A DNA stretch of 64,000 nucleotides from Collinsella sp. An307 (GTDB lineage: Bacteria > Actinomycetota > Coriobacteriia > Coriobacteriales > Coriobacteriaceae). Below, one piece after another: positions 2,629 through 27,889 of the stretch (the stretch's first letter is position 1; every line of letters starts with the position of its first letter). Made by a program: the position numbers and the translations under genes. The DNA is taken from positions 1-64,000 of the forward strand of contig NZ_NFIP01000011.1 in the NCBI RefSeq assembly GCF_002161805.1, given 5' to 3'. A model generated the notes under the pieces. That model worked only from the letters and a program-made list of their open reading frames with translations. It was not told the origin of the DNA and did not search any database.

Positions 2629-2689
2629 TTGCTCGAATCCAACCAATAATGACGTTTTACCGTTAACAAAAGCTTTGCCGTTAATAGCT

Positions 2690-2718: not shown

Positions 2719-2737
2719 CACCAAATTGGAGGTGACG

Positions 2738-6043: not shown

Positions 6044-6083
6044 AATCATTTGCAAGGTAAACCTCGTGTAAAGGAGGTCGATT

Positions 6084-6425: not shown

Positions 6426-6443
6426 TTCCTGAGCCCACTCATT

Positions 6444-6469
6444 AGGCGCCTTTCAGGGCGCCTTCTTTG
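6444..6469 (+). terminator. Rho-independent terminator after early genes
   Basis: AGGCGCC (6444-6450) pairs with GGCGCCT (6457-6463) across a TTTCAG loop, followed by TCTTTG. It separates the early region from the terminase genes. Confidence 0.75.
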
Positions 6470-6530
6470 TGACACCTCCGGACAATGAGCCTGTACGAAT
6501 GTGGGCTTGTCACGGAGGGAGGTGCCCGGC

Positions 6531-6956: not shown

Positions 6957-8226
6957 TGCCGCCGACCTCTGTATCCCGCGCTTCCACGACGTGCTCGGTG
7001 ACGTCATGGCGCACGGGCATACGCACTACTGGCTGCATGGCGGTCGAGGGAGCACGAAGTCGAGCTTCATCAGCTTGTGCATTGTTCTTCTCGTTGTGGC
7101 TTTTCCCTACGCGAACGCGTGCGTGGTGCGGCGCTTCTCCAACACGCTGCGCGACTCGGTGTACCAGCAGGTGCTCTGGGCGATTGAGGCGTTGGGGCTC
7201 TCGGCGTACTTCAAGGCGAAGCTCTCGCCGATGGAGATCGTCTATCTGCCCACGGGGCAGCGCATCGTCTTCCGCGGCGCTGATGACCCGCTCAAGCTCA
7301 AGGGCGTGAAGTTCACGCGCGGGTACTGCGCCATCACGTGGTTCGAGGAACTCGACCAGTTTGACGGCATCGAGGCGGTTCGCTCGATCCTCAACTCGCT
7401 GCGCCGAGGTGGGGAGGACTTCTGGATCTTCTACAGCTACAACCCGCCCAAGACGATGTGGAACTGGGTGAACGTGGAGTGCGTCGAGAGAAGGCGCCGG
7501 GCGGACACGCTTGTTCGACGCTCCTCGTACCTTGATGTGGTGGAGACTCGCCCGGGATGGCTCGGCGCGCCCTTCGTCGAGGAGGCGGAGTACCTGCGCG
7601 AGGAGAACGAGCGCGCGTGGCGCTGGGAGTACCTCGGCGAGGTGACTGGGACCGGCGGTGCGGTCTTTGACAACATCGTGGAGGCGAGGCTCACCGACGA
7701 ACGCGTACGAGGCTTCGAGCGCGTCCGAAACGGCGTGGACTGGGGTTGGTTCCCCGATCCGTGGCGCTTCGTGCGCTGCGGCTGGGAGCCGGGCGCGCGC
7801 AGGCTCACGGTCTTCGAGGAGCACTCGGCCAACAAAATGATGCCCGCCGATACCGGCCGCATCGTGGTGAACGCGCTCACCTACGCCGACGAGCCAGGTG
7901 CGGAGCCCTACTTCCATGACCAGATGGTGTGGTGCGATGACACACCCGACTCAAAGGTGCAGATGGCTACGTGGCGGCGCGAGCTTGGCATTCGCGTGCA
8001 TCCCGCGAGGAAGTCGCGGATGCGCCGGCTCTCCTACGACTGGCTTGCCGGCCTGAGGGAGATCGTCATCGACCCCGCCCGGTGCCCGAGGACGTTCGAG
8101 GAGTTCATGTGCAAGGAGTTCCTGCGCGACCGCGACGGGCGCTGGATTGACGAGATTCCCGACGGTGATGACCACTCCATCGACGCAGTTCGCTACGCGA
8201 TGATGGATGACGTGCTGAGGGGGTGA
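6949..8226 (+). CDS. terL: Phage terminase large subunit
   Basis: Packaging motor ATPase and nuclease, 425 aa, of the PBSX/SPP1 (Terminase_3) type. Walker A is 'HGGRGSTKSS' (about residue 29), Walker B lies in 'AITWFEELDQF' (about 127), and the coupling region includes 'FYSYNPPKTMWNW'. The nuclease domain has acidic positions in 'GVDWGWFPDP' (about 262) and 'DDHSIDAVRYAM' near the end. The length is normal. The start overlaps terS (ATG 6949 before the terS TAG). Early packaging gene, followed by a small ORF and portal. Confidence 0.95.
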   Translation: MVSAADLCIPRFHDVLGDVMAHGHTHYWLHGGRGSTKSSFISLCIVLLVVAFPYANACVVRRFSNTLRDSVYQQVLWAIEALGLSAYFKAKLSPMEIVYLPTGQRIVFRGADDPLKLKGVKFTRGYCAITWFEELDQFDGIEAVRSILNSLRRGGEDFWIFYSYNPPKTMWNWVNVECVERRRRADTLVRRSSYLDVVETRPGWLGAPFVEEAEYLREENERAWRWEYLGEVTGTGGAVFDNIVEARLTDERVRGFERVRNGVDWGWFPDPWRFVRCGWEPGARRLTVFEEHSANKMMPADTGRIVVNALTYADEPGAEPYFHDQMVWCDDTPDSKVQMATWRRELGIRVHPARKSRMRRLSYDWLAGLREIVIDPARCPRTFEEFMCKEFLRDRDGRWIDEIPDGDDHSIDAVRYAMMDDVLRG

Positions 8227-8507
8227 GGAGCGTGCTTCTCGACATATTCAGTCGACAACTGAAAACACGAGGTAGCGGACGTTCTTCTCGCCAGTTTAAA
8301 CGCGGGGAGGACGGACGATGCGATGTGCCGTGGATGTGCGGGCGGGATTCTCGGCATCCAAAACCAAAGCCAGCGGTTCATGGGAGAGATATGCGGCAGC
8401 GTGTGGCGGAGGCAGCACGTTCTTCTCGCCAAGCGAATGAAAAGGGGCGAAGGCTGGAAGAGTTGCCAGGGGAGCCGGTTGGGCGTAAGCGATGGAGGGC
8501 GATGTAG
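8223..8507 (+). CDS. Small basic hypothetical protein between terminase and portal
   Basis: A 94-aa, Arg-rich ORF from a GTG that overlaps the terL stop (GTGA) to a TAG immediately before the portal ATG. The tight packing is the main argument that it is translated. It contains an internal repeat ('GSGRSSRQFKRGE' and 'EAARSSRQANEKG') matched at DNA level by two copies of GTTCTTCTCGCCA. No domain is recognised, and its composition is odd for a protein. Confidence 0.4.
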   Translation: MRSVLLDIFSRQLKTRGSGRSSRQFKRGEDGRCDVPWMCGRDSRHPKPKPAVHGRDMRQRVAEAARSSRQANEKGRRLEELPGEPVGRKRWRAM

Positions 8508-10034
8508 ATGGGGCAGGCGTATGAGGAGGAGTACTGGGTGCCTGAGCACGTGCGGGAGTACCTGCGGGCGCTCGGGTTCGCGCTGCCGCTCGAGGCGATG
8601 GAGCCGCACATTCGCGCGTGGCACGAGTGGATGCAGGCGTGCGGGTCGTTCTACGACTATCACGACACCGACGGCGTTGGGCGCGTGTACGAGGTGCACA
8701 GGCGCTCGATCCATCCTGCGATGCGGGTGTGCCGGGAGTGGGGGTCGCTGCTCCTGAACGACAAGACGCAGGTGGTGTGCGGGGCGCAGGAGTGCACGGA
8801 CTGGTTAGAGGGGTTTCTCGCCCGAAGCGGTTTCATGGCGGCGGCGCAGGCAACCGTGGTGAGGGCCTTTGGCATGGGGACGGGCGCGTGGGCGCTGTGG
8901 GTGGACGCGGACGCGGGCAACGTGCGCATCCGGCACTACGACGCGCGCATGGTGATCCCGCTCACGTGGGACGAGGAGGGCGTGACGGAGTGTGCGTTCG
9001 TCACGCGGGCGTTCTACCGGGGACGCGTGGTCGACCAGCTGCAGATGCACCTGCGTGGCGGCGGGACGGGTTTCTCGGCATCCTCATCTCTCGAGGCTGG
9101 AGGGGTTGATACGGGCGGCTTGTCCTTCTCGCCCTATGAGAGCGCAGGGAGGGGCGGGTACCGGATCGTCACGGTGTGCTTTGACGAGCATGGCAACGAG
9201 GTCGCGCCCACGGGCGTGTGCCCCGTGTACGAGACGGGGAGCCCGTGGCCCACCTTCGCAATCGTCAAGCCCGCCGTGGACAACACGCGCGTGGACATGA
9301 GCCCGTACGGGCAGAGCGTGTTCGCGGATGCGGTGGACGCGATCCAGGCGGTGGACCTCGCCTTCGACGCGATGATCTCCGAGGTGGACAATGGCAAGAT
9401 GCGTGTGTTCCTCAGTGACGTGATGTTCGACCAGGAGACGGACGGTAAGGGTAGGAAGGTCTCGATACCGTTCGGGCGGCAGGACTGCACCGTGTTCAGG
9501 AAGGTCATGAGCACGGAGGACACGATTCAGGAGTTTGCGCCGGCGCTTCGGACCGACGCGCAGGTGAGGGCGTTCAGGTGTGCGCTGCAGATGCTCGGCG
9601 ACCTGACGGGCTTCGGGCTGGGGTACTTCGACTTCGACGGCGCGGGGTACGTGAAGACGGCCACGGAGGTGTCGGCCGACAACTCGGCGCTCATGCGCAA
9701 CATACGCCGGCACGAGCATGCCCTGGAGGGCGCGATAGCGGGCATCTGCCGTGCGGTCATGGCCGCGTCGCGCTCGCTCGGGGTTGAGCTGCCCGACGAG
9801 GGCGAGGTGCGCGTCACGTTCGACGACAGCATCATCACGGACACGAGCGCCGAGAAGCGGCAGGACATGGCGGAGGTGGCCTCGGGCCTCATGGGTGCGT
9901 GGGAGTACCGCGCCAAGTGGTACGGCGAGGACGAGGAGACCGCGAGGAGACTTGCGGGCGAGCTGGGCAGCCCTGTGGCGGCCTCGGCGATGCGTGCGGG
10001 GTCGGGTGTCGCCGCTGCATCCGAGGGGCGGTAG
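8508..10034 (+). CDS. Phage portal protein (SPP1 gp6-like)
   Basis: A 508-aa portal, the dodecameric ring at the DNA-entry vertex. Typical features are an N-terminal wing/clip region, a conserved acidic core ('VFADAVDAIQAVDLAFDAMISEVDNGKMRVFL'), and the late 'DLTGFGLGYFDFDGAGYVKTATEVSADNSALMRNIRRHE' segment that is characteristic of the SPP1/gp6 family. The order terS-terL-portal is canonical. Normally a minor head protein would follow; here the gene is followed by a non-coding gap and defence genes. Confidence 0.9.
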   Translation: MGQAYEEEYWVPEHVREYLRALGFALPLEAMEPHIRAWHEWMQACGSFYDYHDTDGVGRVYEVHRRSIHPAMRVCREWGSLLLNDKTQVVCGAQECTDWLEGFLARSGFMAAAQATVVRAFGMGTGAWALWVDADAGNVRIRHYDARMVIPLTWDEEGVTECAFVTRAFYRGRVVDQLQMHLRGGGTGFSASSSLEAGGVDTGGLSFSPYESAGRGGYRIVTVCFDEHGNEVAPTGVCPVYETGSPWPTFAIVKPAVDNTRVDMSPYGQSVFADAVDAIQAVDLAFDAMISEVDNGKMRVFLSDVMFDQETDGKGRKVSIPFGRQDCTVFRKVMSTEDTIQEFAPALRTDAQVRAFRCALQMLGDLTGFGLGYFDFDGAGYVKTATEVSADNSALMRNIRRHEHALEGAIAGICRAVMAASRSLGVELPDEGEVRVTFDDSIITDTSAEKRQDMAEVASGLMGAWEYRAKWYGEDEETARRLAGELGSPVAASAMRAGSGVAAASEGR

Positions 10035-10656
10035 CGGGCTTCACAGTGGCCGCTGCGGCCCCCTGCGTGACGGTTGCGAGGGGATGCGGCGAACGCCGCT
10101 CCGCGCGGTAGCGCGGACACGGGACGGCGGGGCCTCTCCGCAGCGGCTCCCGTGCGCACCGCATGCTCTTGCCACGAGCGCTGCGCCGCCCGCCCTGGAC
10201 GGCTGACCGGGTGCGTGCGGACGACCCGCATGCGGCAGCAGACCGGACGGCCGTGCGCAGGGTGCGCGCCGCTGGACGGGCGCGACGCGCGGCTGACATG
10301 GCGCCGACTGACCTTTCGACAGGCCATGGGCGCATAGCCGCGCGCGGCTGAACCCGGACATGCGGAGGCAGACCGCGCAGCGGGCTGCCGGAGCCGTGGT
10401 GAAGACGCGCGCGGGTTGCGCCCATGGCCGTCCCAGCAGACGTGCACGCGCCATGGCTGCCGCGTGGCGCGAACGGCCCGGCAGCGCACCCGGAGCGCGG
10501 GCGGCCGGGCTGCGGACAATCCCCGTCGACGCAGCGCGCGGCCGGGCAGACGGCCAGGACTGGCGGCGCAGACATATCCTCCTGTCCATCAGCCCGCTTG
10601 ATTTACGGTCGGTGCGACATTGATGGTTGGGGGAATTCAGGTCATGTTCCTGCCGG
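10035..10656. other. GC-rich gap without a supportable gene
   Basis: About 620 bp of very GC-rich sequence follow the portal. Short ORFs exist in several frames, but none has a good Shine-Dalgarno or a recognisable product. Imperfect short repeats recur (CGCGCGGCTGA/CGCGCGGCCGG and five CAGAC-containing stretches between 10,238 and 10,572). The position is where a minor head/head-morphogenesis gene would be expected, so this may be its decayed remnant or the junction of the cargo insertion. Confidence 0.5.
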
Positions 10657-10691
10657 GCCGTTCCTGGAACGGCAGTTTGCTTTGGTAAAAT
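10657..10691 (+). promoter_or_regulatory. Promoter and palindromic operator of the restriction-modification genes
   Basis: An extended -10 (TGGTAAAAT, with TAAAAT at 10,686-10,691) has no good -35. A 17-bp palindrome GCCGTTCCTGGAACGGC (10,657-10,673) lies where the -35 should be. An operator overlapping an activator-dependent or repressed promoter would explain this. The AT-rich stretch is a sharp break from the GC-rich gap upstream. Confidence 0.5.
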
Positions 10692-10777
10692 CACTAATCG
10701 TCGCGATAGGTTGCCCGTAGCCCGCTGAGCGAATTTCCGGCTGCGCTGCTATGTCTCTGGTAGGGGGTGTCTCGTCT

Positions 10778-12907
10778 ATGGCATCGTCGCGCTCGAATAA
10801 CGCTGCCACATGCGACGGCGCCCCAGGTGTCGCGCACTTTCTCACGTCGGGCTTCGTCGAGTCGTTCGAGCGGCGCCATCCCGCGCGCGTGCTCGAGACC
10901 CTGCTCTGCGACCGCACGACCGGCAAGAACATCATCTGGGCGGACGGCGAGTACGAGCGCCTCGGGGACGGCTATCGCGGCGACGACGAGATCGCCGTGG
11001 GGAGAATCACGGGCATGAGCTCCGGCGTCATCAAGCCCCGGGTCTCCAAGGAGCAGGAGCGCCAGTCGCAGCGAACGAAGACGCGCGCGGAGGTGTTCAC
11101 GCCCTCGTGGCTCGTGAACAGGATGAACAACCTCCTCGACCGGGAGTGGTTCCGCCGGGACGGGACGTTCAACTCGGAGGCGCCCGGCGGCTGGGACACG
11201 AGCCGCGACGAGATCAGGTTCCCCAGGACGCGGGGGCGCGGCTGGCGCGCCTACGTCGGGAGCAGGCGGCTCGAGATAACGTGCGGCGAGGCGCCCTTCG
11301 TGTGCTCGCGCTACGACACGGTGACGGGCGAGGAGATCCCCGTCGAGGACCGCATCGGCTTCCTCGACCGCAAGCTCCGCGTCGTGACCGAGAGGACCAG
11401 GACTCCCGGCGACTGGCTCAAGTGGGCGCTCGCCGCGCTCAGGGCGACGTACGGCTTCGAGTTCCAGGGCGACAACCTCCTGATCGCCCGCGTCAACGTG
11501 CTCGAGACGTTCTGCGAGCACTTCCGCCACCGCTGGGGCTCCGAGCCCCCCGAGGCCGACGTGGAGCGGGCGGCGTGGGTCGTGTCGTGGAACCTCTGGC
11601 AGATGAACGGGTTCACGGACGCGGTCCCGACCACCAGGGCGGGCGCGCCCGTGCAGTCGACGCTCTTCGACTACGAGGAGCCGAGCCTCGAGCCGGTGCA
11701 GCTCTCGCTGTTCGACGCGCTCGGCGCCGACGACGTTGGGGACGGGGCGCCGCCGCCCACGGACCAAGGGGGCAGGGACGCCGTCCCGCTCTGCGTCATC
11801 TACGACTGGCAAGGGGAAAAGCCGTTTGAGTACGTGTCGTTGAAAGGCAAGGCGTGTCCGATGGAGAAGAAGTTCTACGCGGTGATTGGCAATCCGCCAT
11901 ACCAAACCGATCCCGGCGAGGGGAATACTCGGGCTCAGCCCATCTATGACAAGTTCATGGATGCCTGCTACGAGGTCGCTGACATCGTTGAGCTAATCAC
12001 TCCTGCTCGCTTCCTCTTCAACGCGGGGCAAACGCTACCAAGCTGGAACGAGAAGATGCTCGACGACCCGCACATTACAGTAGTCGACTACGAACCAGAT
12101 TCCTCAAAGGTGTTTGCAAACACCGACATCAAGGGTGGCGTGGCGGTAACGCTTCGCAACTCAAGAGTCGACTATGGGGCGATAGGAGTATTCACCGCAT
12201 TTCCTGCGCTGAACGAAATAATCGGACGCGTAAGCAGGGCAACGGCCGGTAAAGAGAAGCTCGACAGCATCTTTGCCTCCCAGCGGCTATACAAGTTTTC
12301 CGACACGTTTTTCCAGGAGAACGCCGACAATGACAACGTTCAAAAGATCATGAACAGCGGAACGAGAACCAAAATCGTATCCAGCTTCATGGAGAAGGTG
12401 CCCGACGTGTTTCTCGTGCAAGCTCCCCGAGATGCGTCTTATATTCGTATGCTCGGACGTATTCGGGGCCAGCGCGAATACAGGTACATTGACGCGCGGT
12501 ATGTAAAGGCCAACGAATACCTCGACGCATACAAGCTGTTTATACCGGAAGCAAACGCATCTGGCGCCTTTGGCGAGCGCTTGGCAGAGCCCGTTGTAGG
12601 TCTTCCTGGAGACGGCTCAGCAGACACGTTTCTCAACGCTGGCCCGTTCTCATCAGAGGAGGAGGCCCGAGCACTTGCCAAATACTACAAGACCAAGTTT
12701 TTCAGGGCCCTCTTGGGAGCCAGGAAGGTGACACAGCACAGTCCTCAGCAGGTTTGGAGGACGATTCCCCTGCAGGACTTCACCCCCTCCTCCGACATCG
12801 ACTGGTCGAAGTCCGTGTCCGACATCGACCGCCAGCTGTACCGCAAGTACGGCCTCGACGACGGCGAGGTCGAGTTCATCGAGACGAACGTGAAGGAGAT
12901 GGAGTGA
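10778..12907 (+). CDS. Eco57I-type adenine methylase subunit of a restriction-modification-like system
   Basis: A 709-aa DNA N6-adenine methyltransferase-type protein. It has 'EVFTPSWLVNRMNNLLD' (about residue 104), a variant SAM-site segment 'LEITCGEAPFVCSRYD' (about 164) in place of the usual DPxCGSG, and the catalytic NPPY in 'VIGNPPYQ' (about 368). The C-terminal half should hold target recognition. ATG 10,778 has AGGGGGTG 8 nt upstream and is preferred over ATG 10,751. It forms an operon with the helicase gene, which starts 1 nt after its stop. The segment from about 11,830 to 12,760 is clearly lower in GC than the rest of the gene, as expected if the recognition part was exchanged. From memory, similar 'restriction subunit M' proteins with the ITCGEAP motif occur widely; no specificity can be read from sequence. 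Confidence 0.85.
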   Translation: MASSRSNNAATCDGAPGVAHFLTSGFVESFERRHPARVLETLLCDRTTGKNIIWADGEYERLGDGYRGDDEIAVGRITGMSSGVIKPRVSKEQERQSQRTKTRAEVFTPSWLVNRMNNLLDREWFRRDGTFNSEAPGGWDTSRDEIRFPRTRGRGWRAYVGSRRLEITCGEAPFVCSRYDTVTGEEIPVEDRIGFLDRKLRVVTERTRTPGDWLKWALAALRATYGFEFQGDNLLIARVNVLETFCEHFRHRWGSEPPEADVERAAWVVSWNLWQMNGFTDAVPTTRAGAPVQSTLFDYEEPSLEPVQLSLFDALGADDVGDGAPPPTDQGGRDAVPLCVIYDWQGEKPFEYVSLKGKACPMEKKFYAVIGNPPYQTDPGEGNTRAQPIYDKFMDACYEVADIVELITPARFLFNAGQTLPSWNEKMLDDPHITVVDYEPDSSKVFANTDIKGGVAVTLRNSRVDYGAIGVFTAFPALNEIIGRVSRATAGKEKLDSIFASQRLYKFSDTFFQENADNDNVQKIMNSGTRTKIVSSFMEKVPDVFLVQAPRDASYIRMLGRIRGQREYRYIDARYVKANEYLDAYKLFIPEANASGAFGERLAEPVVGLPGDGSADTFLNAGPFSSEEEARALAKYYKTKFFRALLGARKVTQHSPQQVWRTIPLQDFTPSSDIDWSKSVSDIDRQLYRKYGLDDGEVEFIETNVKEME

Positions 12908-12908
12908 C

Positions 12909-15900
12909 ATGTCCTTCGCCGACATCACGGGCAGGGTCAAGACCTCGCGCCCGGCGCTCCCGCAGATCTACGCCTACACCACCCCCGAGATAGCCCGCCA
13001 CGACGGGTGGACGAAGATCGGCTATACGGAGCAGGACGTCGAGCGGCGCGTGTGGCAGCAGACGCACACCGCCAACGTGAGGGCCGTCATAGAGTGGCAC
13101 GGCAACGCCACCTACGAGGACGGCTCCGGTACGTTCAAGGACACCGACTTCCACGCCTACCTCAGGCGGCTCCACGTAGCCAACGAGCCGGGGACCGAGT
13201 GGTTTGAGATCGCGCCCCAGCCCGCGAAGATGCGCTTCTACGAGTTCCGCGAGAACCACGGCGTCACGGGCACCCCCGCCGCCGTGGAGTACCGCCTGCG
13301 TGACGAGCAGGTGCAGGCGGTCGAGCGGGCAGCGGCGTACGCCCGGAGCCACGAACGGGGCGAGTTCCTCTGGAACGCGAAGCCGCGCTTCGGTAAGACG
13401 CTCGCGAGCTACGACCTGTGCCGGAGGCTCGGCGCCGAGAGGGTCCTCATCGTGACGAACCGCCCCGCCATCGCGAACTCCTGGTACGACGACTACGTGA
13501 AGTTCGTTGGCACGGGGTCGGGGCTCTGCTTCGTGAGCTCCGTCGACGCGCTCAGGGGAAAGCCGCACTGCCTGACGCGCGACAAGTATCTCGAGAATCT
13601 CCGCAACGGCGGACCGCGGGGCTTCGTAGAGTTCGTCAGCCTGCAGGACCTCAAGGGCTCCATCGAGTTCGGCGGCAGGTACGACAAGCTCGCCCACGTC
13701 GCCGACCTCGAGTGGGACGTCCTCATCATCGACGAGGCCCACGAGGGCGTGGACACCATGAAGACCGACGTGGCGTTCGACCACATCAGAAGAAGGTTCA
13801 CGCTGCACCTCTCCGGGACGCCCTTCAAGGCCATCGCGAACGAGAAGTTCCCCGAGGACGCCATCTTCAACTGGACCTACGCCGACGAGCAGCGGGCGAA
13901 GCACGACTGGGGCGACGCGGAGCTCCCGAACCCCTACGCCGACCTGCCCCGGCTCAACATGTTCACCTACCAGATGTCCGACATCGTGGAGGGCGAGGTC
14001 AGGCGCGGCTGCGACATCGACGGCGACACCGTCGAGTACGCGTTCGACCTGAACGAGTTCTTCGCGACAAACCAGAACGGCTACTTCCAGCACAACGAGG
14101 ACGTCGACCGCTTCCTCGACGCGCTCACCACGCAGGGGAAGTTCCCGTTCTCGACCCCGGAGCTGCGCGACGAGCTGCGCCACACGCTCTGGATGCTGAA
14201 CCGCGTGGACTCCGCCCGCGCGCTGGCGCGGAAGCTGAGGAAGCACCCCGTGTTCAGGGACTACGAGGTCGTGCTCGCGGCGGGCGACGGCAGGCTCGAC
14301 GACGAGGGCGAGACGGCGCGCGCGTTCGACAGGGTGCGGGCGGCGATAGCCTCCCACGACAGGACCATCACGCTCTCCGTCGGCCAGCTCACCACCGGCG
14401 TGACGGTCCCGGAGTGGACGGCGGTGCTCATGCTCTCCAACATGAAGAGCCCCTCGCTCTACATGCAGGCCGCCTTCCGCGCCCAGAACCCCTGCCTCTT
14501 CTGCAGGGGCGGAAAGTACCTCCGCAAGGAGAACGCCTACGTCTTCGACTTCGACCCGGCGCGCACGCTCACCATCTTCGAGGAGTTCGCCAACGACCTC
14601 TACACCGACACCGCCTCGGGCGGCGGCACGCTCGACGACCGCAAACGGCGCATCCGCACGCTGCTCAACTTCTTCCCCGTCATCGGCGAGGACGAGGGAG
14701 GCGAGATGGTGGAGCTCGACGCCGAGCGCGTGCTCTCCATCCCGCGCAAGATCAGGTCGCGCGAGGTCGTGCGCCGCGGCTTCATGAGCGACTTCCTCTT
14801 CCAGAACATCGGCAGCGTCTTCCACGCCCCCGCCGAGGTCATCGAGGTGCTGCAGCGGATGGAGCCCTACAAGACGCCCTCCGACGACCTCGGGGTGCGC
14901 TCCGGCACCGCCGACGAGCTCGACCTCGACGAGAACGGGGAGGTCGACGTCCCCCGCGAGCAGGTCGTGGGGCTCGCCGAGAGCCTGTTCGGGGACAAGG
15001 TCTACGGCGACATCGCCGTGGAGTTCGACGGCGCCGTCGACTCCATCTCCGCCGAGGGCGCCGGCGACCCCGAGGACTCCTTCCTCGACGAGCTCGCCCG
15101 CGCCTTCAGCTCGGGCATCGCCGAGCCCCTCGTCGAGGCGGCGAGGCAGAGCTACGGCTCCGACATGCGCCCCGCGCAGCAGAGGAAGGTGGAGCGACGC
15201 ATCAAGGCGGACGTGGACATCAAGCTCAACCGAGAGGTCGGCAGCTTCAACATCGCGCGCAACAGGATCGAGCGGGAGCGCGAGCAGGAGCTCGAGGGCG
15301 CCGAGACGCAGGAGGAGGCGGACCGCATCAACCGCAGGCACGACGAGCGGCTGGAGGATGCCCGCAGGGAGCTCGTCAGCAACCTGAGGGACGCCCGGGG
15401 CGAGCTCGTGAGGAGCGCCGGGGAGACGGTCGTGCGCGAGGTCGAGACCGCTAGGCGCGAGGCGAAGAAGCAGACCCTCGAGGGGAACATCCGCGACCAC
15501 CTGCGCGGCTTCTCGCGGACGATACCGTCGTTCCTCATGGCGTACGGCGACGAGGGCACGACGCTTTCGAACTTTGACCGGATCATCCCCGCGAGCGTGT
15601 TCCAGGAGGTCACGAGCGTCACCGTCGACCAGTTTCGGCTGCTGCGCGACGGCGGGGACGTCACGGACCCCGAGACCGGCCAGGTCGTCCACTTCGGGGG
15701 TCAGCTCTTCGACCCCGTGGTGTTCGACGACTCGGTGCGGGAGTTCATCGCGCTGCGCACCAGGCTCGCCAACTACTTCGACGAGGGCCAGGACGAGGAC
15801 ATCTTCGACTACGTGCCCCCGCAGAGGACCAACCAGATCTTCACGCCCCGCCGCGTTGTGGCGCGCATGCTCGACCTCTTCGAGCGGGAGAACCCCGGGT

Positions 15901-16241
15901 GCTTCGACGACCCCGGCAACACCTTCGCCGACCTCTACATGAAGTCCGGCATCTACGTCACCGAGGTCATCAAGCGCCTGTACAACAGCCCGAGGATGCG
16001 AGAGCTCATCCCGGATGACAGGGAGCGGCTCGACCACATCCTCGAGAGGCAGGTCTTCGGCATCGCCCCGACGGAGATCATCTACCAGATCTCGACGCAC
16101 TACATCCTCGGCTACGACAACGAGGTCGGCGGGGGCTGCGAGACCAACTTCGTGATGGCGGACTCTGCCGAGCTCGCAAAGGAGGGCAGGCTGGCGGAGT
16201 TCGTCGAGGAGGCGTTCGGGGGGAAGCTTGCGGGTGAGTGA
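12909..16241 (+). CDS. GIY-YIG/DEAH helicase restriction-type subunit with a degenerate methylase-like C-terminus
   Basis: An 1,110-aa multidomain protein. Residues about 19-95 resemble a GIY-YIG (T5orf172-like) nuclease fold ('QIYAYTT', then 'GWTKIGYTEQDVERR'). An SF2 helicase follows: motif I 'NAKPRFGKT' (about 157), motif II 'IDEAHEG' (about 274), 'LSGTPF' (about 303), motif V 'LTTGVTVPEW' (about 494) and motif VI 'QAAFRAQNP' (about 520). A charged coiled coil occupies about 780-870. The end (about 975-1,065) has 'QIFTPRRVVARML', 'FADLYMKSGIYVTEVIKRL' and 'VFGIAPTEIIYQIS', the framework of an N6-adenine methylase SAM domain with a changed glycine motif and no NPPY. The NPPY is in the upstream subunit, so the two may build one enzyme. 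It is the likely translocating/cleaving partner. AAGGAG lies 9 nt before the ATG. Confidence 0.85.
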   Translation: MSFADITGRVKTSRPALPQIYAYTTPEIARHDGWTKIGYTEQDVERRVWQQTHTANVRAVIEWHGNATYEDGSGTFKDTDFHAYLRRLHVANEPGTEWFEIAPQPAKMRFYEFRENHGVTGTPAAVEYRLRDEQVQAVERAAAYARSHERGEFLWNAKPRFGKTLASYDLCRRLGAERVLIVTNRPAIANSWYDDYVKFVGTGSGLCFVSSVDALRGKPHCLTRDKYLENLRNGGPRGFVEFVSLQDLKGSIEFGGRYDKLAHVADLEWDVLIIDEAHEGVDTMKTDVAFDHIRRRFTLHLSGTPFKAIANEKFPEDAIFNWTYADEQRAKHDWGDAELPNPYADLPRLNMFTYQMSDIVEGEVRRGCDIDGDTVEYAFDLNEFFATNQNGYFQHNEDVDRFLDALTTQGKFPFSTPELRDELRHTLWMLNRVDSARALARKLRKHPVFRDYEVVLAAGDGRLDDEGETARAFDRVRAAIASHDRTITLSVGQLTTGVTVPEWTAVLMLSNMKSPSLYMQAAFRAQNPCLFCRGGKYLRKENAYVFDFDPARTLTIFEEFANDLYTDTASGGGTLDDRKRRIRTLLNFFPVIGEDEGGEMVELDAERVLSIPRKIRSREVVRRGFMSDFLFQNIGSVFHAPAEVIEVLQRMEPYKTPSDDLGVRSGTADELDLDENGEVDVPREQVVGLAESLFGDKVYGDIAVEFDGAVDSISAEGAGDPEDSFLDELARAFSSGIAEPLVEAARQSYGSDMRPAQQRKVERRIKADVDIKLNREVGSFNIARNRIEREREQELEGAETQEEADRINRRHDERLEDARRELVSNLRDARGELVRSAGETVVREVETARREAKKQTLEGNIRDHLRGFSRTIPSFLMAYGDEGTTLSNFDRIIPASVFQEVTSVTVDQFRLLRDGGDVTDPETGQVVHFGGQLFDPVVFDDSVREFIALRTRLANYFDEGQDEDIFDYVPPQRTNQIFTPRRVVARMLDLFERENPGCFDDPGNTFADLYMKSGIYVTEVIKRLYNSPRMRELIPDDRERLDHILERQVFGIAPTEIIYQISTHYILGYDNEVGGGCETNFVMADSAELAKEGRLAEFVEEAFGGKLAGE

Positions 16242-16348
16242 TGTGTGCGAGTTGCGAAAGGGAGAGGGAATGGAATTACCTCGCTACGTCAGCTCAGCGC
16301 TCAGGGTAATTCAGATTAACACAACGACTTTCATTTTTGTAGAATTAT

Positions 16349-16378
16349 TGCTATGATACTTACATCGTATAGTGATGT
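16349..16378 (+). promoter_or_regulatory. Promoter and operator of the Xre-ImmA operon
   Basis: The extended -10 TGCTATGAT (TATGAT at 16,352-16,357) is followed by an inverted repeat ACATC-GTATAGT-GATGT (16,362-16,378) over the expected transcription start. The layout fits autorepression by the HTH protein of the operon. A GGAGG and TTG start follow. Confidence 0.6.
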
Positions 16379-16390
16379 TAGGAGGCAGCG

Positions 16391-17029
16391 TTGATTCAAT
16401 GCCCCTTGTACACCCCCTATGACCTCGAGATTCTGAGGCCGCTCGGCGGCACCGATTTTGTTGAGCACGCAGTGAGGGCAGTCCGTACCGGATTCAAGGC
16501 GGGAATTAGCCACTGTCGGGCGGACTTTGCCGACATGTCCAGCTGTGATGTTGTGGGCGACTACTGTCGCGCGAAGATTAACGAGGCAGTCGCAGGCCTT
16601 GCTGCAGCCAGTGGGCTCGAGTGCACCTATGAGAAGCCCGAGCGGCAGCGCTACCATAGTCCAGTCATCAGGGCCGGCGGAACCGTGCTGACGGTTGCGC
16701 GGATGTATGGCAAGCGCAATGTAACCCGCCCTTCAGGGCTGCGGTGCAATCTTGCCCAGCTGCGCCTATTTGACTTGGATGACACTCGTAGCTTTGCTTA
16801 TGATGACGACGTGCGAGCCCTAATCCTTGCTTATTCACTCCGAGCTAAGGGACAGCGGTACCTCATCCAGCGAATCGAACTCCAAGAGATTGGGATTTCG
16901 CCTGAGGATGTTACTCACCGTATAGACCTTCTTTCGAAAGTGGCTGTACAATCTGCCACCACTCAAGCGGTTGTGTTTGATGATTTCGACATCAAGCCAA
17001 AGGAAGGACTGTTGAGGAAGCATGCCTGA
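16391..17029 (+). CDS. Unknown protein, partner of the Xre-ImmA/IrrE protein
   Basis: A 212-aa protein starting at TTG 16,391 with GGAGG 5 nt upstream; no ATG or GTG fits. I recognise no domain. It ends 8 bp inside the next gene, so the two are coupled. Pairs of an unrelated protein and an HTH-ImmA/IrrE protease recur as toxin-antitoxin-like defence modules (the RosmerTA type is one named example), and this gene would be the toxin in such a reading. That role is inferred from context only. Base composition is lower in GC than the phage genes around it. Confidence 0.75.
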   Translation: MIQCPLYTPYDLEILRPLGGTDFVEHAVRAVRTGFKAGISHCRADFADMSSCDVVGDYCRAKINEAVAGLAAASGLECTYEKPERQRYHSPVIRAGGTVLTVARMYGKRNVTRPSGLRCNLAQLRLFDLDDTRSFAYDDDVRALILAYSLRAKGQRYLIQRIELQEIGISPEDVTHRIDLLSKVAVQSATTQAVVFDDFDIKPKEGLLRKHA

Positions 17030-18164
17030 GTTGGGATTTCAAGGGAGACGACTCGCGCAGGCTCGCAGGGCTCGTTCCATGACGCAGAGGGCTCTCGCTC
17101 AACTTATTGGAAAGACCTCGCAGGCAGTCTCCCAGTACGAGAAAGGCTCGACTACCCCTTCCCAGGAGGTGGTCGAACGCATCGTCAAGTTCTTGCAGGT
17201 TCCTGTAGAGCTGCTTTACAGGCCTTGGGTAGACCATGGTTCGGATAAGCCCGTGTTCTACAGATCGATGTCGGCGGCAACCAAGCGGGCGCGAGATGCT
17301 GCCGAGAGCAAGCTGGAGTGGATTGATGATTGCGTTTCATACTTTGAATCCATGCTTGACCTGCCCGAGTTCTCCCCGTTCGACATGGAGATTCCAAGCG
17401 ACCCTCTCCTGATCACTGATGAGCTGATAGAGGAGGCTGCGGCAACTGTTCGGGCTGCATGGGACGTGCCAGCTGGTCCCATAGACAATATGATTGGCCT
17501 TCTTGAGAGGCATGGTGTCTTCGTTTTTATGATGCCCCTTGGCGCTGACACCCTTGATGCATTATCTGTCGACTGGAACGAGGCACATCCGTATGTGGTC
17601 GTGGGGACTGACCAGGGAAATGCTTGCCGTTGGAGATTTGACTGCGCTCACGAGCTCGGACACCTTGTTCTGCACAGAAATATCGATAGCTCGCTTCTGG
17701 CAACGCCCGCTGTTTGCAAGCTCATTGAGACACAGGCGCATAGATTCGCCTCGGCGCTTCTTTTGCCGGAAGAAGAGTTCGTCGATTCGCTCTATACGGT
17801 AAGTCTCGATGGATACCGCGATCTTAAACCATACTGGAAGACCTCTATATCGGCGATGATTCGCAGGACAAGAGACCTTGGCATCATTGACGATGCGGGA
17901 TATCGGAATCTGTACATTTCCATCAGCCGTCGTAGATGGCGCAAGATTGAGCCGTTTGACGAGGAGATGGCTCCCGAGCGTCCTGCTTTGGCAAGAAAGT
18001 GTCTTGAGGTCATCTCCACCTCGCTCGTCGGATCGGAAGATGAGTTCAACAAGATGACTGCTCTGCCAGAGGATTTCATGATGACGCTATTTGGTAGTTT
18101 CAGAAGGGCCGCAAATTCTCCGAAGGGACAAATCATATCTCTCCCCATGAGGTCGAGGAAGTAA
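17022..18164 (+). CDS. Xre-family HTH protein with ImmA/IrrE metallopeptidase domain
   Basis: A 380-aa protein. Residues about 8-62 are a lambda-repressor-like HTH ('MTQRALAQLIGKTSQAVSQY'). The middle to C-terminal part is an M78 ImmA/IrrE peptidase with the zinc motif HELGH in 'CAHELGHLVLH' (about 210-214) and the typical 'HRFASALLLPEEEF'. Such proteins bind their own promoter and are cleaved, or cleave partners, on a stress signal. Here it probably regulates the operon and may neutralise the upstream gene product. It is unlikely to be the prophage repressor because it lies inside the late cassette with its own promoter. The Abi gene follows after 12 bp. Confidence 0.9.
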   Translation: MPELGFQGRRLAQARRARSMTQRALAQLIGKTSQAVSQYEKGSTTPSQEVVERIVKFLQVPVELLYRPWVDHGSDKPVFYRSMSAATKRARDAAESKLEWIDDCVSYFESMLDLPEFSPFDMEIPSDPLLITDELIEEAAATVRAAWDVPAGPIDNMIGLLERHGVFVFMMPLGADTLDALSVDWNEAHPYVVVGTDQGNACRWRFDCAHELGHLVLHRNIDSSLLATPAVCKLIETQAHRFASALLLPEEEFVDSLYTVSLDGYRDLKPYWKTSISAMIRRTRDLGIIDDAGYRNLYISISRRRWRKIEPFDEEMAPERPALARKCLEVISTSLVGSEDEFNKMTALPEDFMMTLFGSFRRAANSPKGQIISLPMRSRK

Positions 18165-18176
18165 GGTGGGCACTTG

Positions 18177-19214
18177 ATGGAAGTTGATCCGGTCACCGAT
18201 GCTTGCGAGGGCTCGGCTTGCATGGACGTGGCGAACGGTGGTATAAATCGTACTGACAGTACCCCGCACGCTTCAGTCCCAACGGGAACAGCGAACCAGG
18301 CGGGGTCATCTTTTTCTCCACTCCCTGACGCTACAACCTACGAGGAGCAGCTCTCCAAGATGGAGGGACGGGGCCTCTTCGTGTCGGACGAGGAGTTTGC
18401 CGTCGCCCGGCTTCGCGAGCTGAACTACTATCGCCTCCGCGGGTACTGGCTCACGCTCGAGCGGGACGGCTCCTTCGTCGAGGGGGCGAGCTTCGACGAC
18501 GTCTGGGAGATCTACCAGCTCGACCGGGAGCTCCGCGCGTGGCTCTGGCGTGCGATAGCGCCCATCGAGATAAAGCTGAGGACTCAGTTCGCCTACCACT
18601 TTGCCAACCTGTGCGACGCGGGGGCATATCTCGACGCTGGGAACTATAGGAGCCGCTCCAGTTTTCGGAGGGCAATCTCGAACTTCGAGCGCGAGAGGGA
18701 CCGAGCGCGCGATCAGGGCGTGCCCTGCGTGGTCCACAACATGGACAAGTACGGGAAGCTCCCGGTCTGGGCGGCGGTGGAGAGCATGTCGTTCGGCACG
18801 CTCTCGATGCTCTACGGGAACCTCTGCCCCAGCACTGGTTCGAGCGAGAGATCCAAGGGGGTGCAGGCGGCGGTCGCAGAGGCCTTCGGCACGAATCCGT
18901 ACTACCTGAAGAGCTGGGTGCACCACCTGACTACGGTCCGCAACATCGCGGCCCATCACGACCGGTTCTACAACCGCGTGATGACCATCCGCCCATCGCT
19001 TCTCAGGCAAGACGAGAGGCGTATCAGGCGACGGGACGCCAACAAGCAGTTTCCGACCTTTCTGGTGCTCCGCAGGATATACGAGAAGTCTTGGCCGGAG
19101 GAGTGGGGGCCTCTCAGTGACGAGCTCGCCGCCTGCGTCGACCGGCACCCCTCTGTAAATCTTGCGCCGATGGGATTCCCGAAGAACTGGAAACGTGTTC
19201 TCGGAATCGAGTAG
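18177..19214 (+). CDS. Abi_2 family (AbiD/AbiF) abortive-infection HEPN protein
   Basis: The conserved part begins at 'TTYEEQLSKMEGRGLFV' (about residue 56) and includes 'LNYYRLRGYWLTL', 'YQLDRELRAWLWRAIAPIEIKLRTQFAYH' and the HEPN RNase motif RxxxxH in 'VRNIAAHHDRFYNR' (about 253). Proteins of this family abort infection by RNA cleavage and are related to the HEPN domains of Cas13. The first 55 or so residues are unlike the family. ATG 18,177 with AAGGTGG upstream gives 345 aa; ATG 18,222 is an alternative. A promoter-like and terminator-like pair overlaps the 5' end (see the ncRNA candidate). It follows the Xre-ImmA gene closely and may be read with it. Confidence 0.85.
   Translation: MEVDPVTDACEGSACMDVANGGINRTDSTPHASVPTGTANQAGSSFSPLPDATTYEEQLSKMEGRGLFVSDEEFAVARLRELNYYRLRGYWLTLERDGSFVEGASFDDVWEIYQLDRELRAWLWRAIAPIEIKLRTQFAYHFANLCDAGAYLDAGNYRSRSSFRRAISNFERERDRARDQGVPCVVHNMDKYGKLPVWAAVESMSFGTLSMLYGNLCPSTGSSERSKGVQAAVAEAFGTNPYYLKSWVHHLTTVRNIAAHHDRFYNRVMTIRPSLLRQDERRIRRRDANKQFPTFLVLRRIYEKSWPEEWGPLSDELAACVDRHPSVNLAPMGFPKNWKRVLGIE
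18254..18315 (+). ncRNA. Candidate small RNA at the front of the Abi gene
   Basis: TTGCAT (18,218-18,223) and TATAAA (18,242-18,247), 18 bp apart, would start a transcript near 18,254. ACCCCGC (18,261-18,267) pairs with GCGGGGT (18,300-18,306), with an inner CCC-AAC-GGG stem, then CATC and TTTTT (18,311-18,315). The result would be a structured RNA of about 60 nt. It overlaps the poorly conserved N-terminal codons of the Abi ORF. Small RNA partners have been reported for AbiF-like proteins (recalled, not checked). The transcript is a prediction. Confidence 0.35.
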
Positions 19215-19275
19215 CGCACCTCCTATCCGTTTTTTGCTTTGTGACAGCCCTCTAAGCTGCTTGGCAGTATTAGGG

Positions 19276-19296
19276 GGCCGATTTCGTTTATCGGCC
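19276..19296. other. Hairpin between Abi gene and scaffold gene
   Basis: GGCCGAT (19,276-19,282) and ATCGGCC (19,290-19,296) enclose TTCGTTT. There is no clear T-run, so it may be a weak terminator of the defence genes or part of the scaffold-gene leader. It marks the point where phage structural genes resume. Confidence 0.45.
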
Positions 19297-19317
19297 ATAA
19301 GCTGAGAGGCGGTTGAC

Positions 19318-19824
19318 ATGGCCGGTGATGAGGTTGGCTCGCAGGGGCCGGAGCGTACGGAAGGCACGACGGCGCGCGAGCCGGAGCCGCAGGCGACGCA
19401 GGAGCCGCTGACGGTTGGGGGCAGCGGTGCTGCTGATGCGAGCACGGACTACGAGGCCCTTCTCGCCGAGCGCGACGCCAAGATTGCGGAGCTGGAGGGA
19501 GCAATCGCGGAGGCGGCAAAGACTGCCGAGGCAGCCGAGGCGCTGCGCGCCGAGATGGACGAGCTGCGACGCCAGGGCGAAGAGCAGCGTGTCGAGTTCG
19601 AGCTCACGATGGCCGGCGCTAAGAGCGTCAAGGCCGCCCGCGCCCTTCTCGACGAGCACGGCGGTGACGTCTCCAAGCTGAAGGAAGCCGAGCCCTGGCT
19701 GTTCGGGGGAGCGGAGCCCAAGCAGAGCGGCAAGACCGGCCTCCCCAACGCGGGGGCCGCATCCGACGAGGGCAAGACGATGAAGCGGTGGCGCGAGATC
19801 GCGGGCATCGCGGACGAGGAGTAG
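19318..19824 (+). CDS. Phage scaffolding protein
   Basis: A 168-aa protein in the slot just before the major capsid gene. It is acidic and alanine-rich. It has a long coiled coil ('ALLAERDAKIAELEGAIAEA' through 'EMDELRRQGEEQRVEFEL', about residues 41-100) and a small C-terminal domain, as in gp20-like scaffolding proteins that guide procapsid assembly. The start has GAGAGG upstream. It ends 3 bp before the capsid gene. Confidence 0.8.
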   Translation: MAGDEVGSQGPERTEGTTAREPEPQATQEPLTVGGSGAADASTDYEALLAERDAKIAELEGAIAEAAKTAEAAEALRAEMDELRRQGEEQRVEFELTMAGAKSVKAARALLDEHGGDVSKLKEAEPWLFGGAEPKQSGKTGLPNAGAASDEGKTMKRWREIAGIADEE

Positions 19825-19827
19825 CAG

Positions 19828-20844
19828 ATGGCCAACAGCATCGCATCCGTCAGGAACTACACGACCGTCCTCGACGAGGTGTACCAGCGCGCGGCGGTCT
19901 CCGCGTGCCTGAACAGCCCGCGCCGCATGGTGCGCGCGGGGCGCAATGCCAAGGAGATCATGGTTCCGAAGATCCAGGTATCCGGCCTTGGCAACTACAC
20001 ACGCAACGTGGGCTACAAGACCGGCAGCATCACCTACGAGTTCGAGACGAAGACGTTTAACTACGACCGTGGTATCCGCCTTCTGGCTGACGTCATGGAC
20101 GTGGAGGAGGCCGGCGTGCTCGACTGCTTTGTCGAGGCTGGCTCCGAGCTCCAGCGCACGCAGGTGGCGCCGGAGGCCGACGCCTTCACCTTTGCCGAGA
20201 TCGCAGGGCACGAGGGCGTCTCCACTGCCACGACCGACTATTCCGACGCAGAGGCGGAGGACGTGCTTGCCGACCTGCGCGCAGCGACGAACGCGATGGA
20301 CGAGGCGCAGGTGACCACGGGCTCGCGCTACCTCTTCATCACGCCGACGCTCAAGGGCGTGCTGGATGACTTCAGCCTTGCGAACCCGACGCGCTCGAAC
20401 CGCGTGCTCGAGCGGTTCTCCCGCATCGTCGAGGTTCCGCAGGTGCGCTTCTATTCGCACATCGACTTGCTTTCCGGAGACGAGGACCAGTTTGGCTACG
20501 CGCCCGCCGAAGGTGCCTACGAGCTCACCTCCGACACCGAGGTCGTGAGCGGCAAGACCTACTACACCGAGAGCTCCGGTACCTACTCCAAGGTGGCGAG
20601 CCCGCAGAAGAGCGGCCTCTCCACGTACTACGAGCTCGTGGGCGCAGGCGCACCGATCAACTTCCTCGTGGTGGAGAAGAGCGCCGTGATTAAGTTCGAC
20701 AAGCACGTGGCGAGCCGCGTGTTCAGCCCCGACGAGCTGGAGACACTCGACTCCTACATGATGAAGTACCGCAAGTACGGCATCGTGGAGCTGCTCGACA
20801 ACAAGCTTGACGGCGTCTATGCGTCTGTGGCTCCGCTGGCGTAG
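19828..20844 (+). CDS. Major capsid protein
   Basis: A 338-aa capsid protein, likely HK97-fold. It starts 'ANSIASVRNYTTVLDEVYQRAA' and has the 'SGLGNYTRNVGY' and 'YDRGIRLLADVMDVEEAG' segments and 'FITPTLKGVLDDF' common in capsids of gut Firmicutes and Coriobacteria phages. Residues about 226-270 ('YELTSDTEVVSGKTYYTESS...YYELV') look like an inserted surface domain. There is no N-terminal protease-linked extension. It is tightly spaced after the scaffold gene. Confidence 0.88.
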   Translation: MANSIASVRNYTTVLDEVYQRAAVSACLNSPRRMVRAGRNAKEIMVPKIQVSGLGNYTRNVGYKTGSITYEFETKTFNYDRGIRLLADVMDVEEAGVLDCFVEAGSELQRTQVAPEADAFTFAEIAGHEGVSTATTDYSDAEAEDVLADLRAATNAMDEAQVTTGSRYLFITPTLKGVLDDFSLANPTRSNRVLERFSRIVEVPQVRFYSHIDLLSGDEDQFGYAPAEGAYELTSDTEVVSGKTYYTESSGTYSKVASPQKSGLSTYYELVGAGAPINFLVVEKSAVIKFDKHVASRVFSPDELETLDSYMMKYRKYGIVELLDNKLDGVYASVAPLA

Positions 20845-20854
20845 GGGGTTCGCT

Positions 20855-21211
20855 GTGGGCTGTGCGGGTGCGACGTCTGTGGACTTTGGCTTCTATCGCG
20901 ACACGTATGGCGGCGGGATGGGCGTGGAGGCGTTTACGGAAGCGCTCCCCGCAGCCGAGCGTCACGTGCGGTGGCTCTGCGGCGGATGCGTGCCTGCGTG
21001 TGATGCGGACGAGCTTGCGTACCGGCGTGCGGTTTGCGCGGCAGCCGAGGCGTTCGCGGAGTTTGGCGAGGGACAGGTGGGCGGCTTCCAGATCGGGTCC
21101 TTCTCGGTGACGCACTACGACAACCGGGGAACCACCGGTGAGGAGCAGGCGACCTACGCCTGCGAGAAAGAACTTGCTGGGACGGGGCTCCTGTTCTGCG
21201 GGGTGCGCTGA
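20855..21211 (+). CDS. Head-tail connector / head completion protein
   Basis: A 118-aa protein starting at GTG 20,855 with TAGGGGG upstream; the longer ORF from 20,807 would overlap the capsid gene. Its position directly after the capsid and its size fit a gp15/gp6-type connector that binds the portal ring. It is cysteine-rich in the middle ('LCGGCVPACDADEL'). Its stop overlaps the ATG of the next gene (TGATG). Confidence 0.65.
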   Translation: MGCAGATSVDFGFYRDTYGGGMGVEAFTEALPAAERHVRWLCGGCVPACDADELAYRRAVCAAAEAFAEFGEGQVGGFQIGSFSVTHYDNRGTTGEEQATYACEKELAGTGLLFCGVR

Positions 21212-21537
21212 TGGCGTGGCTGCGTCCGATACCCGCGAGGCTGCTGTCGGACTCGTGCCTAGTGCGCGAGCCGGCGGTCGATGGCGGCTTTGGCGAGCCG
21301 CGCGCCATCTCGCACGTGAGGTTCGAGCGGGCACAGTCGGTGGTCGCCAATGCGCACCGCAGCGCGGACGCCGGGGCGGGCACGCTCTTCGTGGATGCCG
21401 TCATGAGCGCAGGTGCTTTCGAGATTCCCGCGGGCTCGCGCGTGGAGGTGCATGGGAGGTCGTACGTGGCTGCTAAGGTTTCGCGCTTCGAGGGGTTCAA
21501 CGGACGCGTGCACCACTGGGAAGTGGAGCTGCGATGA
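21211..21537 (+). CDS. Minor capsid / head-tail joining protein
   Basis: A 108-aa protein in the second connector slot. The fold is predicted to be beta-rich, with 'PAGSRVEVHGRSYVAAKVSRFEGFNGRVHHWEVELR' resembling the minor-capsid (head closure) family of siphophages. Coupled by overlaps on both sides. Assignment relies on order and size as well as sequence. Confidence 0.65.
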   Translation: MAWLRPIPARLLSDSCLVREPAVDGGFGEPRAISHVRFERAQSVVANAHRSADAGAGTLFVDAVMSAGAFEIPAGSRVEVHGRSYVAAKVSRFEGFNGRVHHWEVELR

Positions 21538-21926
21538 GGGCGGTCGTGGATGCCGTGGCGGGGATGCTGCGCGCGGCGGGAGTCGGTGACGTGTTCTGTA
21601 TCGCGCCAAGCGCACTGTTGAGCGAACAGCCCGTCGTGGTTCGCTGGGCGGGCTTCTCGCGTGAGAGCCGCCAAGACGGCGAGGAACGCGGAGTCGCCTC
21701 GGTGGAGGTGTTTGCCGTCCGCGAAACGGATGCTGCCGCGTACGATGTCGCGATTCTGTGCGAAGCGGCTGTGCGCTCGTCTGGGCGCTCCGAGTGGAAC
21801 GCAGAGGGCTCCGGGGTGCGCATTCTGGGCATCGACACGGACGCGCCGACCTTCAGGGAGCGCGACTCGAGCGGGCGCTTCGTGTGGGCATTCACGGTGA
21901 GGCTGACGGTTGCGAGGGAGATATGA
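21534..21926 (+). CDS. Minor capsid / tail-terminator-like protein
   Basis: A 130-aa protein in the third connector slot, matching the size and layout of Minor_capsid_3 or tail-completion proteins ('PVVVRWAGFSRESRQDG', then beta strands ending 'FVWAFTVRLTV'). Starts at an ATGA overlap. In related phages the major tail protein and tape measure follow; here they do not. Confidence 0.6.
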   Translation: MRAVVDAVAGMLRAAGVGDVFCIAPSALLSEQPVVVRWAGFSRESRQDGEERGVASVEVFAVRETDAAAYDVAILCEAAVRSSGRSEWNAEGSGVRILGIDTDAPTFRERDSSGRFVWAFTVRLTVAREI

Positions 21927-22105
21927 CTGTCAGAAAGGAGTCAAAAGCCGTGGTAGATGATGGCCGGGGCGCTTGGCGCGATAGGCGCGACCTTCCTGCC
22001 AACATTTGCTTGAGCCGTTCGGGCAGCCGCTTTCGAGACGAGGAGCTCTCTGAGCGCGAGCAGCGTCGGGCCGTGTCCTACGGTCGCGCGAGGGGACGGC
22101 TCTGA
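21923..22105 (+). CDS. Short hypothetical protein at the missing-tail-gene junction
   Basis: A 60-aa, charged ORF starting at ATG 21,923, which overlaps the TGA of the minor capsid gene, and ending at a TGATG overlap with the Dit-like gene. No domain is recognised. It occupies the place where tail tube, tail chaperones and tape measure (normally several kilobases) would be. It may be a real small gene or an in-frame fusion left by a deletion. Confidence 0.5.
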   Translation: MTVRKESKAVVDDGRGAWRDRRDLPANICLSRSGSRFRDEELSEREQRRAVSYGRARGRL

Positions 22106-22845
22106 TGGCCCGATCCATCACGTTTGGAGGGCACGACTTCTCGTCCTTCTCGACGGCTGAGGTGGTGCTGCCCGCGGCGCATGGCATCTCCGTAGAGGCC
22201 GCTGAGGTGCCCGGCCGTGCCGGTGCGGTTCTTCTTTCCACACGTATCCCGCCCAAGGTGCTGAACGTGCGGTTGTTCCTCGACCTTGCGGATGACGAGG
22301 GTGTGGAGGGGCTCTCCGCCGTGCGGCACCAGGCGGCCTCATGGCTCGCCTCGGATGCCGGGAGTGACCTGGAGCTTCCCGGGGAGCCGGGACTCGTCTA
22401 CCGCGATGCCGTGTGCACGGACGCGGGGTCGTGGGACAACCTTTTCGAGGATGGCTCCTGCGAGCTGGTGTTCACGGCGTTCGATCCCGTTGCGTGGGGA
22501 CAGGAGCAGGAGAAGTTGGCTGCTGCGGGCAGCGCGGGGCTGTCGTTGCTCGTTGGCGGCACGTATCGGACGTGGCCGACGTTCGTGATGGAGGCCTCGG
22601 CTGGTGATGGCGTGGTTGTCGAGGATGTTGGAACGAGTGCGTGCGTTGAGGTGGAGCGGGTGTTTCTTGGCGGTGAGGAGATCGTTGTCGACTGTGCCGC
22701 AGGGCGCGCGTTGGTTGACGGAGCGGCGGCCGATGCCGACGTGACGCTGGAGAGCGACTTCTTCTGGCTGGAGCCGGGTTCGCACGAGCTCTCCTTCACG
22801 GGATGCACGGACTTCACAGCAAACTTCACAGAAAGATGGCTCTGA
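22105..22845 (+). CDS. Distal tail protein (Dit-like)
   Basis: A 246-aa protein of the siphophage distal-tail family. The N-terminal domain ('ITFGGHDFSSFSTAEVVLPAAHG' to 'LELPGEPGLVYRDAV') matches the Sipho_tail belt domain that forms a hexameric ring. The C-terminal part ('FTAFDPVAWG' onward) is the galectin-like half. It lies just before the Tal-like gene, as expected, and overlaps it at TGATG. Confidence 0.8.
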   Translation: MARSITFGGHDFSSFSTAEVVLPAAHGISVEAAEVPGRAGAVLLSTRIPPKVLNVRLFLDLADDEGVEGLSAVRHQAASWLASDAGSDLELPGEPGLVYRDAVCTDAGSWDNLFEDGSCELVFTAFDPVAWGQEQEKLAAAGSAGLSLLVGGTYRTWPTFVMEASAGDGVVVEDVGTSACVEVERVFLGGEEIVVDCAAGRALVDGAAADADVTLESDFFWLEPGSHELSFTGCTDFTANFTERWL

Positions 22846-27888: not shown

Positions 27889-27889
27889 G

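Follow-up and report, generated by a model that had tools for sequence, protein, structure and literature searches.

The defence genes that lie between the portal and scaffold genes of a Collinsella prophage are best explained as what a permanent slot with exchangeable contents carries at present. The slot would belong to an integrative element of phage origin, about 30 kb long and widespread in Coriobacteriia. We put the probability of this explanation, taken as a whole, at roughly three in four. What looks like a single odd prophage would then be one copy of a common vehicle by which complete defence systems, type I restriction-modification (RM) and BREX among them, pass between Coriobacteriia; cargo carried in a lysogen would protect the host, and hence the element, against other phages. 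The slot's edges also suggest, in a form open to testing, how a late structural operon can accommodate so large an exchangeable insert, and they make such slots findable with one RNA core motif and one eight-base box.

The window (the whole stretch of DNA analyzed, 64,000 nt) is a contig of the 2.2 Mb genome assembly of Collinsella sp. An307. The element ends at a 48-nt copy of the 3' end of a tRNA-Glu (30078-30125), which is repeated in the tRNA at 30608. Features of the element are collected in Table 1; beyond the genes for the distal tail protein (Dit), the tail endopeptidase (Tal) and the fibre, an LRR-like protein is encoded.

Table 1. Features of the integrative element and of its cargo slot, in window coordinates.
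Feature	Position	Strand	Basis or remark
Integrative element as seen in the window	1..30125	.	left end at or beyond the contig edge
Tyrosine integrase	77..1378	-	Pfam Phage_integrase, E 3.5e-24
Primase-helicase	3407..5455	+	phrog_2597, E 1.8e-194
TTTGTGAC box upstream of terS	6466..6473	+	conserved before terS in relatives
Terminase small subunit, terS	6531..6956	+	phrog_4102
Terminase large subunit, terL	6745..8226	+	phrog_3717, phrog_2; start uncertain (6745 or 6913)
Portal	8508..10034	+	phrog_533, E 3e-91; Pfam SPP1_portal
Rod-like structured RNA element, left edge of slot	10181..10571	+	imperfect palindrome, z -4.4 (computed for 10030-10600); compensatory changes; core 10346-10406 invariant
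Exchangeable cargo unit	about 10569..19237	+	close-relative homology breaks off and returns at its ends
Eco57I-type DNA methylase	10751..12907	+	Eco57I, E 4e-13
Helicase/nuclease (T5orf172 + ResIII), restriction partner	12909..16241	+	family match
RmrT-like toxin candidate, 212 aa	16391..17029	+	PADLOC RmrT only, weak, E 3e-4; overlaps start of RmrA gene
RmrA-like HTH-ImmA antitoxin	17022..18164	+	PADLOC RmrA, E 7e-111; Peptidase_M78
AbiD abortive-infection protein	18174..19214	+	PADLOC AbiD, E 2e-76; Pfam Abi_2, E 3e-45
TTTGTGAC box, right edge of slot	19238..19245	+	TTGTGAC in 32/35 members
Hairpins between box and scaffold	19246..19300	+	z -3.8
Scaffold	19318..19824	+	phrog_194, E 5e-5; weak Phage_scaffold
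Major capsid protein (MCP)	19828..20844	+	phrog_422, E 3e-69
Head-tail adaptor c3, by position	20855..21211	+	conserved order; homologues in distant phages
Stopper c5, by position and family	21211..21537	+	Pfam Minor_capsid_1, E 8e-10
Tail terminator c6	21534..21926	+	AlphaFold pLDDT 93; matches to lambda gpU, T5 p142 and GTA terminators
73-aa protein with invariant RRAxxYGRARG, in place of tube and tape measure	21884..22105	+	
Distal tail protein, Dit	22105..22845	+	phrog_33, E 5e-23
Tal / prophage tail endopeptidase	22803..24125	+	Pfam Prophage_tail, E 7e-22
Collagen-like tail fibre	24125..25783	+	Pfam Collagen, E 1e-19

A preliminary description of this DNA had placed a two-gene RM-like system, an HTH-ImmA pair and an Abi gene between portal and scaffold, with late structural genes resuming behind them. 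This gene content and order hold, and the units can now be named as a methylase with a helicase/nuclease, a RosmerTA-like pair and AbiD. The RosmerTA family consists of defensive toxin-antitoxin systems (PMC10440598); its RmrA antitoxin is clearly present here, with a weak RmrT match at the expected adjacent position. The two RM proteins had no match among PDB sequences (phmmer). The same description had given each cargo unit its own promoter-like signal, and this part could not be established: the cargo contains four sigma-70-like sites, with 1.3 expected by chance, and only one (at 16316) is usefully placed. An assembly join at the island edges is rejected, as independent assemblies show each flank next to different cargo, and the order of RNA element, RM and RosmerTA genes recurs in a contig of a metagenome-assembled genome (L259).

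Relatives were collected by searching for the portal in IMG/VR and the genomes of the family, and for the capsid protein in IMG/VR and the genomes of the class. In every complete element measured whose portal is at least about 64% identical, 4.6-12.5 kb separate portal and scaffold, and in one genome (G046), where a polysaccharide cluster lies between the two genes, the distance is about 16 kb. The interval measures 2.3-4.4 kb in L126 and L146-L149, distant relatives with portals 31-43% identical, and the first gene in it is a minor head gene (497-674 aa); L061, with a portal 51% identical, likewise has a minor-head homologue immediately 3' of the portal. Profiles from the distant phages recognize no minor head gene in the slot. 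Comparison with related Coriobacteriia prophages, which the preliminary description had proposed as a check, thus finds different cargo between the same portal and scaffold genes in close relatives, and in distant ones a minor head gene. From this difference, the slot was probably gained and the minor head gene lost inside one clade. The earlier suggestion that a head gene was given up for cargo is therefore supported, and for the clade as a whole. As a separate observation, L107 has a minor-head-related ORF of 139 aa outside the slot, at its right end (merged-contig position 31590).

Four relatives that are about 90% identical around the slot carry unrelated cargo; their homology with the window ends at 10567/10568 and returns at 19237-19386, and in the two that keep the right flank up to the box it returns at 19237 and 19239. 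By family matches, the cargo in relatives includes RM systems of type II (L035), type III together with an HKD-Snf2 helicase (L053, L056), type I (L120) and type IIG (L037), as well as BREX (BrxC and BrxA) in a partial element (L045); AbiD-like and AbiJ proteins and candidate systems are also found. The contig L259 shares the RNA element, the RM genes and RosmerTA with the window; RosmerTA DNA is 100% identical and the RM genes are about 80-97% identical per 250-bp block, except for a non-homologous stretch within the methylase gene (12148-12762). Because this cassette is a mosaic, modules move independently, in agreement with three genes (c71-c73) that adjoin a type IIG RM system in some members and a type I system in others. 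Cargo would be swapped by recombination in the conserved flanks. At its right end, the cargo of five relatives (L111, L112, L113, L132, L134) has a minus-strand gene for an SRAP (SOS response associated peptidase) protein. BnzA/BnzB-like defence genes occupy a third insertion site, located beyond the tail genes, in L117 (17109-19028); L123 has the same genes.

The slot resembles the defence hotspots of P2-like phages and P4-like satellites (PMC9122126) in being a high-turnover locus between two conserved genes and in being filled with diverse anti-phage systems, which are assigned here by family match. Those hotspots measure 1-5 kb and are without type I RM or BREX, whereas the slot spans 4.6-16 kb, includes both, lies inside the head gene cluster and has an RNA element and a box at its edges. 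Prophages of Eggerthella lenta, likewise from Coriobacteriia, have been sorted into clades, one of which (clade 5) has polysaccharide genes (PMC8778435); neither a slot nor an RNA is described there.

Between the end of the portal gene and position 10750 there is no predicted gene. Much of this interval is an imperfect palindrome that folds as a single long rod, and an element of about 380-540 bp follows the portal in most members and is absent from the distant phages. In an alignment of nine members, compensatory change on both sides is seen in 31 of 114 pairs. Of all cells, 98.2% are paired, a share that drops to 23-44% once partners are slid. Using one alignment both to derive and to score the structure works in its favour, and shuffled and slid controls guard against this. 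Chance is rejected as the source of the palindrome, because almost every member has the element at this site and covariation of its pairs far exceeds that in these controls. MAFFT misaligns the apical loop between size classes of the RNA, leaving a covariance model (R1) of only 16 pairs, which still tells true from chance hits. GGCUGA, CAGAC and GAAGAC are invariant in the core, for which the model has 35 matches, all in portal orientation. The element was found in 26 of 298 Coriobacteriia genomes, from 12 genera, and tblastn detected the portal at 23 of the 26 loci examined around the class-wide hits. In a collection of 85,000 species, strong matches are to Coriobacteriia by record title with two exceptions: a record labelled only 'Actinomycetes bacterium', in which the portal is present, and an 'uncultured actinobacterium'. 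Occurrences of the core pattern outside Coriobacteriia (Variovorax, Thauera, Streptomyces and others) did not score as the RNA, apart from a 23-bit Cellulomonas match that we treat as chance.

Position at the left edge of the exchangeable unit and near-palindromic sequence in nearly all members would also suit a DNA site, used for recombination or as a cruciform in cargo exchange. We consider this unlikely in view of the strand bias of the signal: in 21 of 22 members the antisense strand folds less well than the sense strand, the invariant motifs are strand-specific, and G-U cells outnumber A-C cells by 40 to 6, although deriving the structure on the sense strand favours G-U. We therefore treat the palindrome as a new structured RNA family with no function assigned; insulation, antitermination or a role in the particle are guesses. 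GOLLD and ROOL are likewise large structured RNAs encoded by phages, and their function is unknown (PMC12286853). They are multibranched and lie near tRNA islands, in contrast to the long rod adjoining the portal, and a search of positions 1-31000 of the window with Rfam covariance models at gathering scores returned tRNAs only, with no GOLLD or ROOL match. The same search in one relative (L052) gave a single chance-level hit.

At the right edge, cargo gives way to the box, of which the window holds just two exact copies, one before terS and one before the scaffold gene. Of 35 distinct members, 32 have TTGTGAC in the 150 nt upstream of the scaffold, in most cases at a distance of 67-92 nt, where the background rate is 0.0065 per 150 nt; the exact box is missing in three. 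In relatives it also precedes the portal (in many after a gene inserted between terL and portal), the fibre where genes interrupt Tal and fibre, and a small gene (c23) ahead of the endolysin. Since terS, and portal or fibre genes located behind other insertions, have this box in front of them as well, late transcription probably starts anew beyond the cargo. On the simplest reading of these positions, the box is a late promoter element that heads each late unit and would restart structural transcription 3' of each insertion. The strong hairpin 3' of the box (mean z -3.9 in 23 members) may, judging from its place, stop cargo transcripts from entering the capsid genes and so keep the latter free of them.

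The order of terL, portal, scaffold, MCP, connectors, Dit and Tal, and the homologous proteins involved, are those of SPP1-type temperate siphophages (the type of L146-L149), which additionally have a minor head gene after the portal, a tail tube, chaperones and a tape measure. These were not found in the element: when the tail genes were compared with five distant relatives, PHROGs and Pfam, no member showed a tail tube, a chaperone or a tape measure, and, as the profiles came from few distant relatives (L126, L146-L149), a very diverged or host-encoded tube or tape measure could be missed. Among prophages of E. lenta, a tape measure was recognized in only 6 of 10 clades (PMC8778435). In place of the missing genes, members carry an ORF of 49-73 aa with an invariant RRAxxYGRARG; in the window this arginine-rich protein could bind nucleic acid or be a relic. 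The terminator is called from a confident AlphaFold fold that matches lambda gpU, T5 p142 and other terminators. With tail tube, chaperones and tape measure not found, besides the minor head gene, an ordinary self-sufficient siphophage is unlikely on this gene content.

The preliminary description had also concluded that the prophage is domesticated rather than active. The data do not support this: the element has intact terL, portal, MCP, connector, terminator, Dit, Tal, fibre and integrase genes, and among close relatives dN/dS is mostly 0.05-0.3 for the integrase, packaging, head, connector, terminator, tail-tip and fibre genes. These values point to purifying selection on the integrase, packaging, head, connector, tail-terminator and tail-tip genes, and the relaxed selection on structural genes that is expected of a decaying prophage is not seen. 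A prophage that has lost head function and now serves as a chromosomal defence island would accommodate the missing minor head, tail tube and tape measure genes, the capsid-gene fragments in many genomes and the further partial copies in the host genome. It fits poorly with this selection on genes from the integrase to the fibre, with the tRNA-Glu repeat at the element end, with the recurrence of the family across many Coriobacteriia genomes, with the absence of the same genes throughout the clade, unlike random decay, and with the continued turnover of cargo, and we regard it as very unlikely. Many of the class-wide capsid hits are fragments, so many copies have decayed, though the lineage is under selection.

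Judged by its genes, the element thus looks like a selected, particle-forming element that is satellite-like or has a minimal tail; its particle would either borrow the tail tube of a helper phage or have a minimal tail of terminator, Dit and Tal. If it is a satellite, which we place near but below even odds, it would make its own heads and tail tips and take tail tube and tape measure from a helper. A primase-helicase, its own packaging and head genes (terminase, portal, capsid and connectors) and an incomplete tail set are shared with capsid-forming satellites, namely capsid-forming PICIs and the Streptomyces satellites MulchRoom and MiniFlayer (PMC10690885). Capsid-forming PICIs are described as having no tail genes of their own and needing whole tails, unlike this element, which keeps terminator, Dit, Tal and fibre genes. 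The element resembles capsid-forming PICIs, but we do not file it as one.

The kept terminator, Dit, Tal and fibre genes, all under selection, together with the failure to find tube and tape measure and with the endolysins carried by relatives, would also suit a self-sufficient phage with a minimal short tail, in which the connector would carry terminator, Dit, Tal and fibres directly, with no tube. This is conceivable, if well short of an even chance, given that a tail terminator normally caps a tube, that the literature searched holds no precedent and that no endolysin or other lysis gene is recognized in the window. In effect, the family lets one ask of a natural case whether tail tube and tape measure are dispensable for a phage particle or have to be borrowed.

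Beyond the exchangeable slot itself, we tentatively propose, as one joint claim, a novel, widespread particle-forming class in Coriobacteriia that combines a docking site for whole defence systems (a new rod-like RNA of about 380-540 nt and a repeated late-promoter box) with a tubeless terminator-Dit-Tal tail. Minor head, tail-tube and tape-measure genes would have been replaced, and the RNA might act, for example, in antitermination or insulation, or as a particle or packaging RNA.

Several further observations concern the window and related loci. Where relatives have their lysis genes, the window has two ORFs (27253-29422; 211 and 510 aa) with no family match. The Tal and fibre genes each have their 3' end within one copy of a 70-nt direct repeat (24060-24129 and 25718-25787; 89% identity). 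Two relatives (L213, L210) have scaffold and capsid genes with an integrase upstream of the scaffold and no portal within the stretch examined, and so may be reduced variants. The assembly to which the window belongs (G000, in which it is contig C3) holds further partial elements of the same family on contigs C11 (L133), C1 (L143) and C15 (L144); C11 has a portal, an RNA core and a shortened capsid gene, and on C1 a portal fragment adjoins polysaccharide genes.
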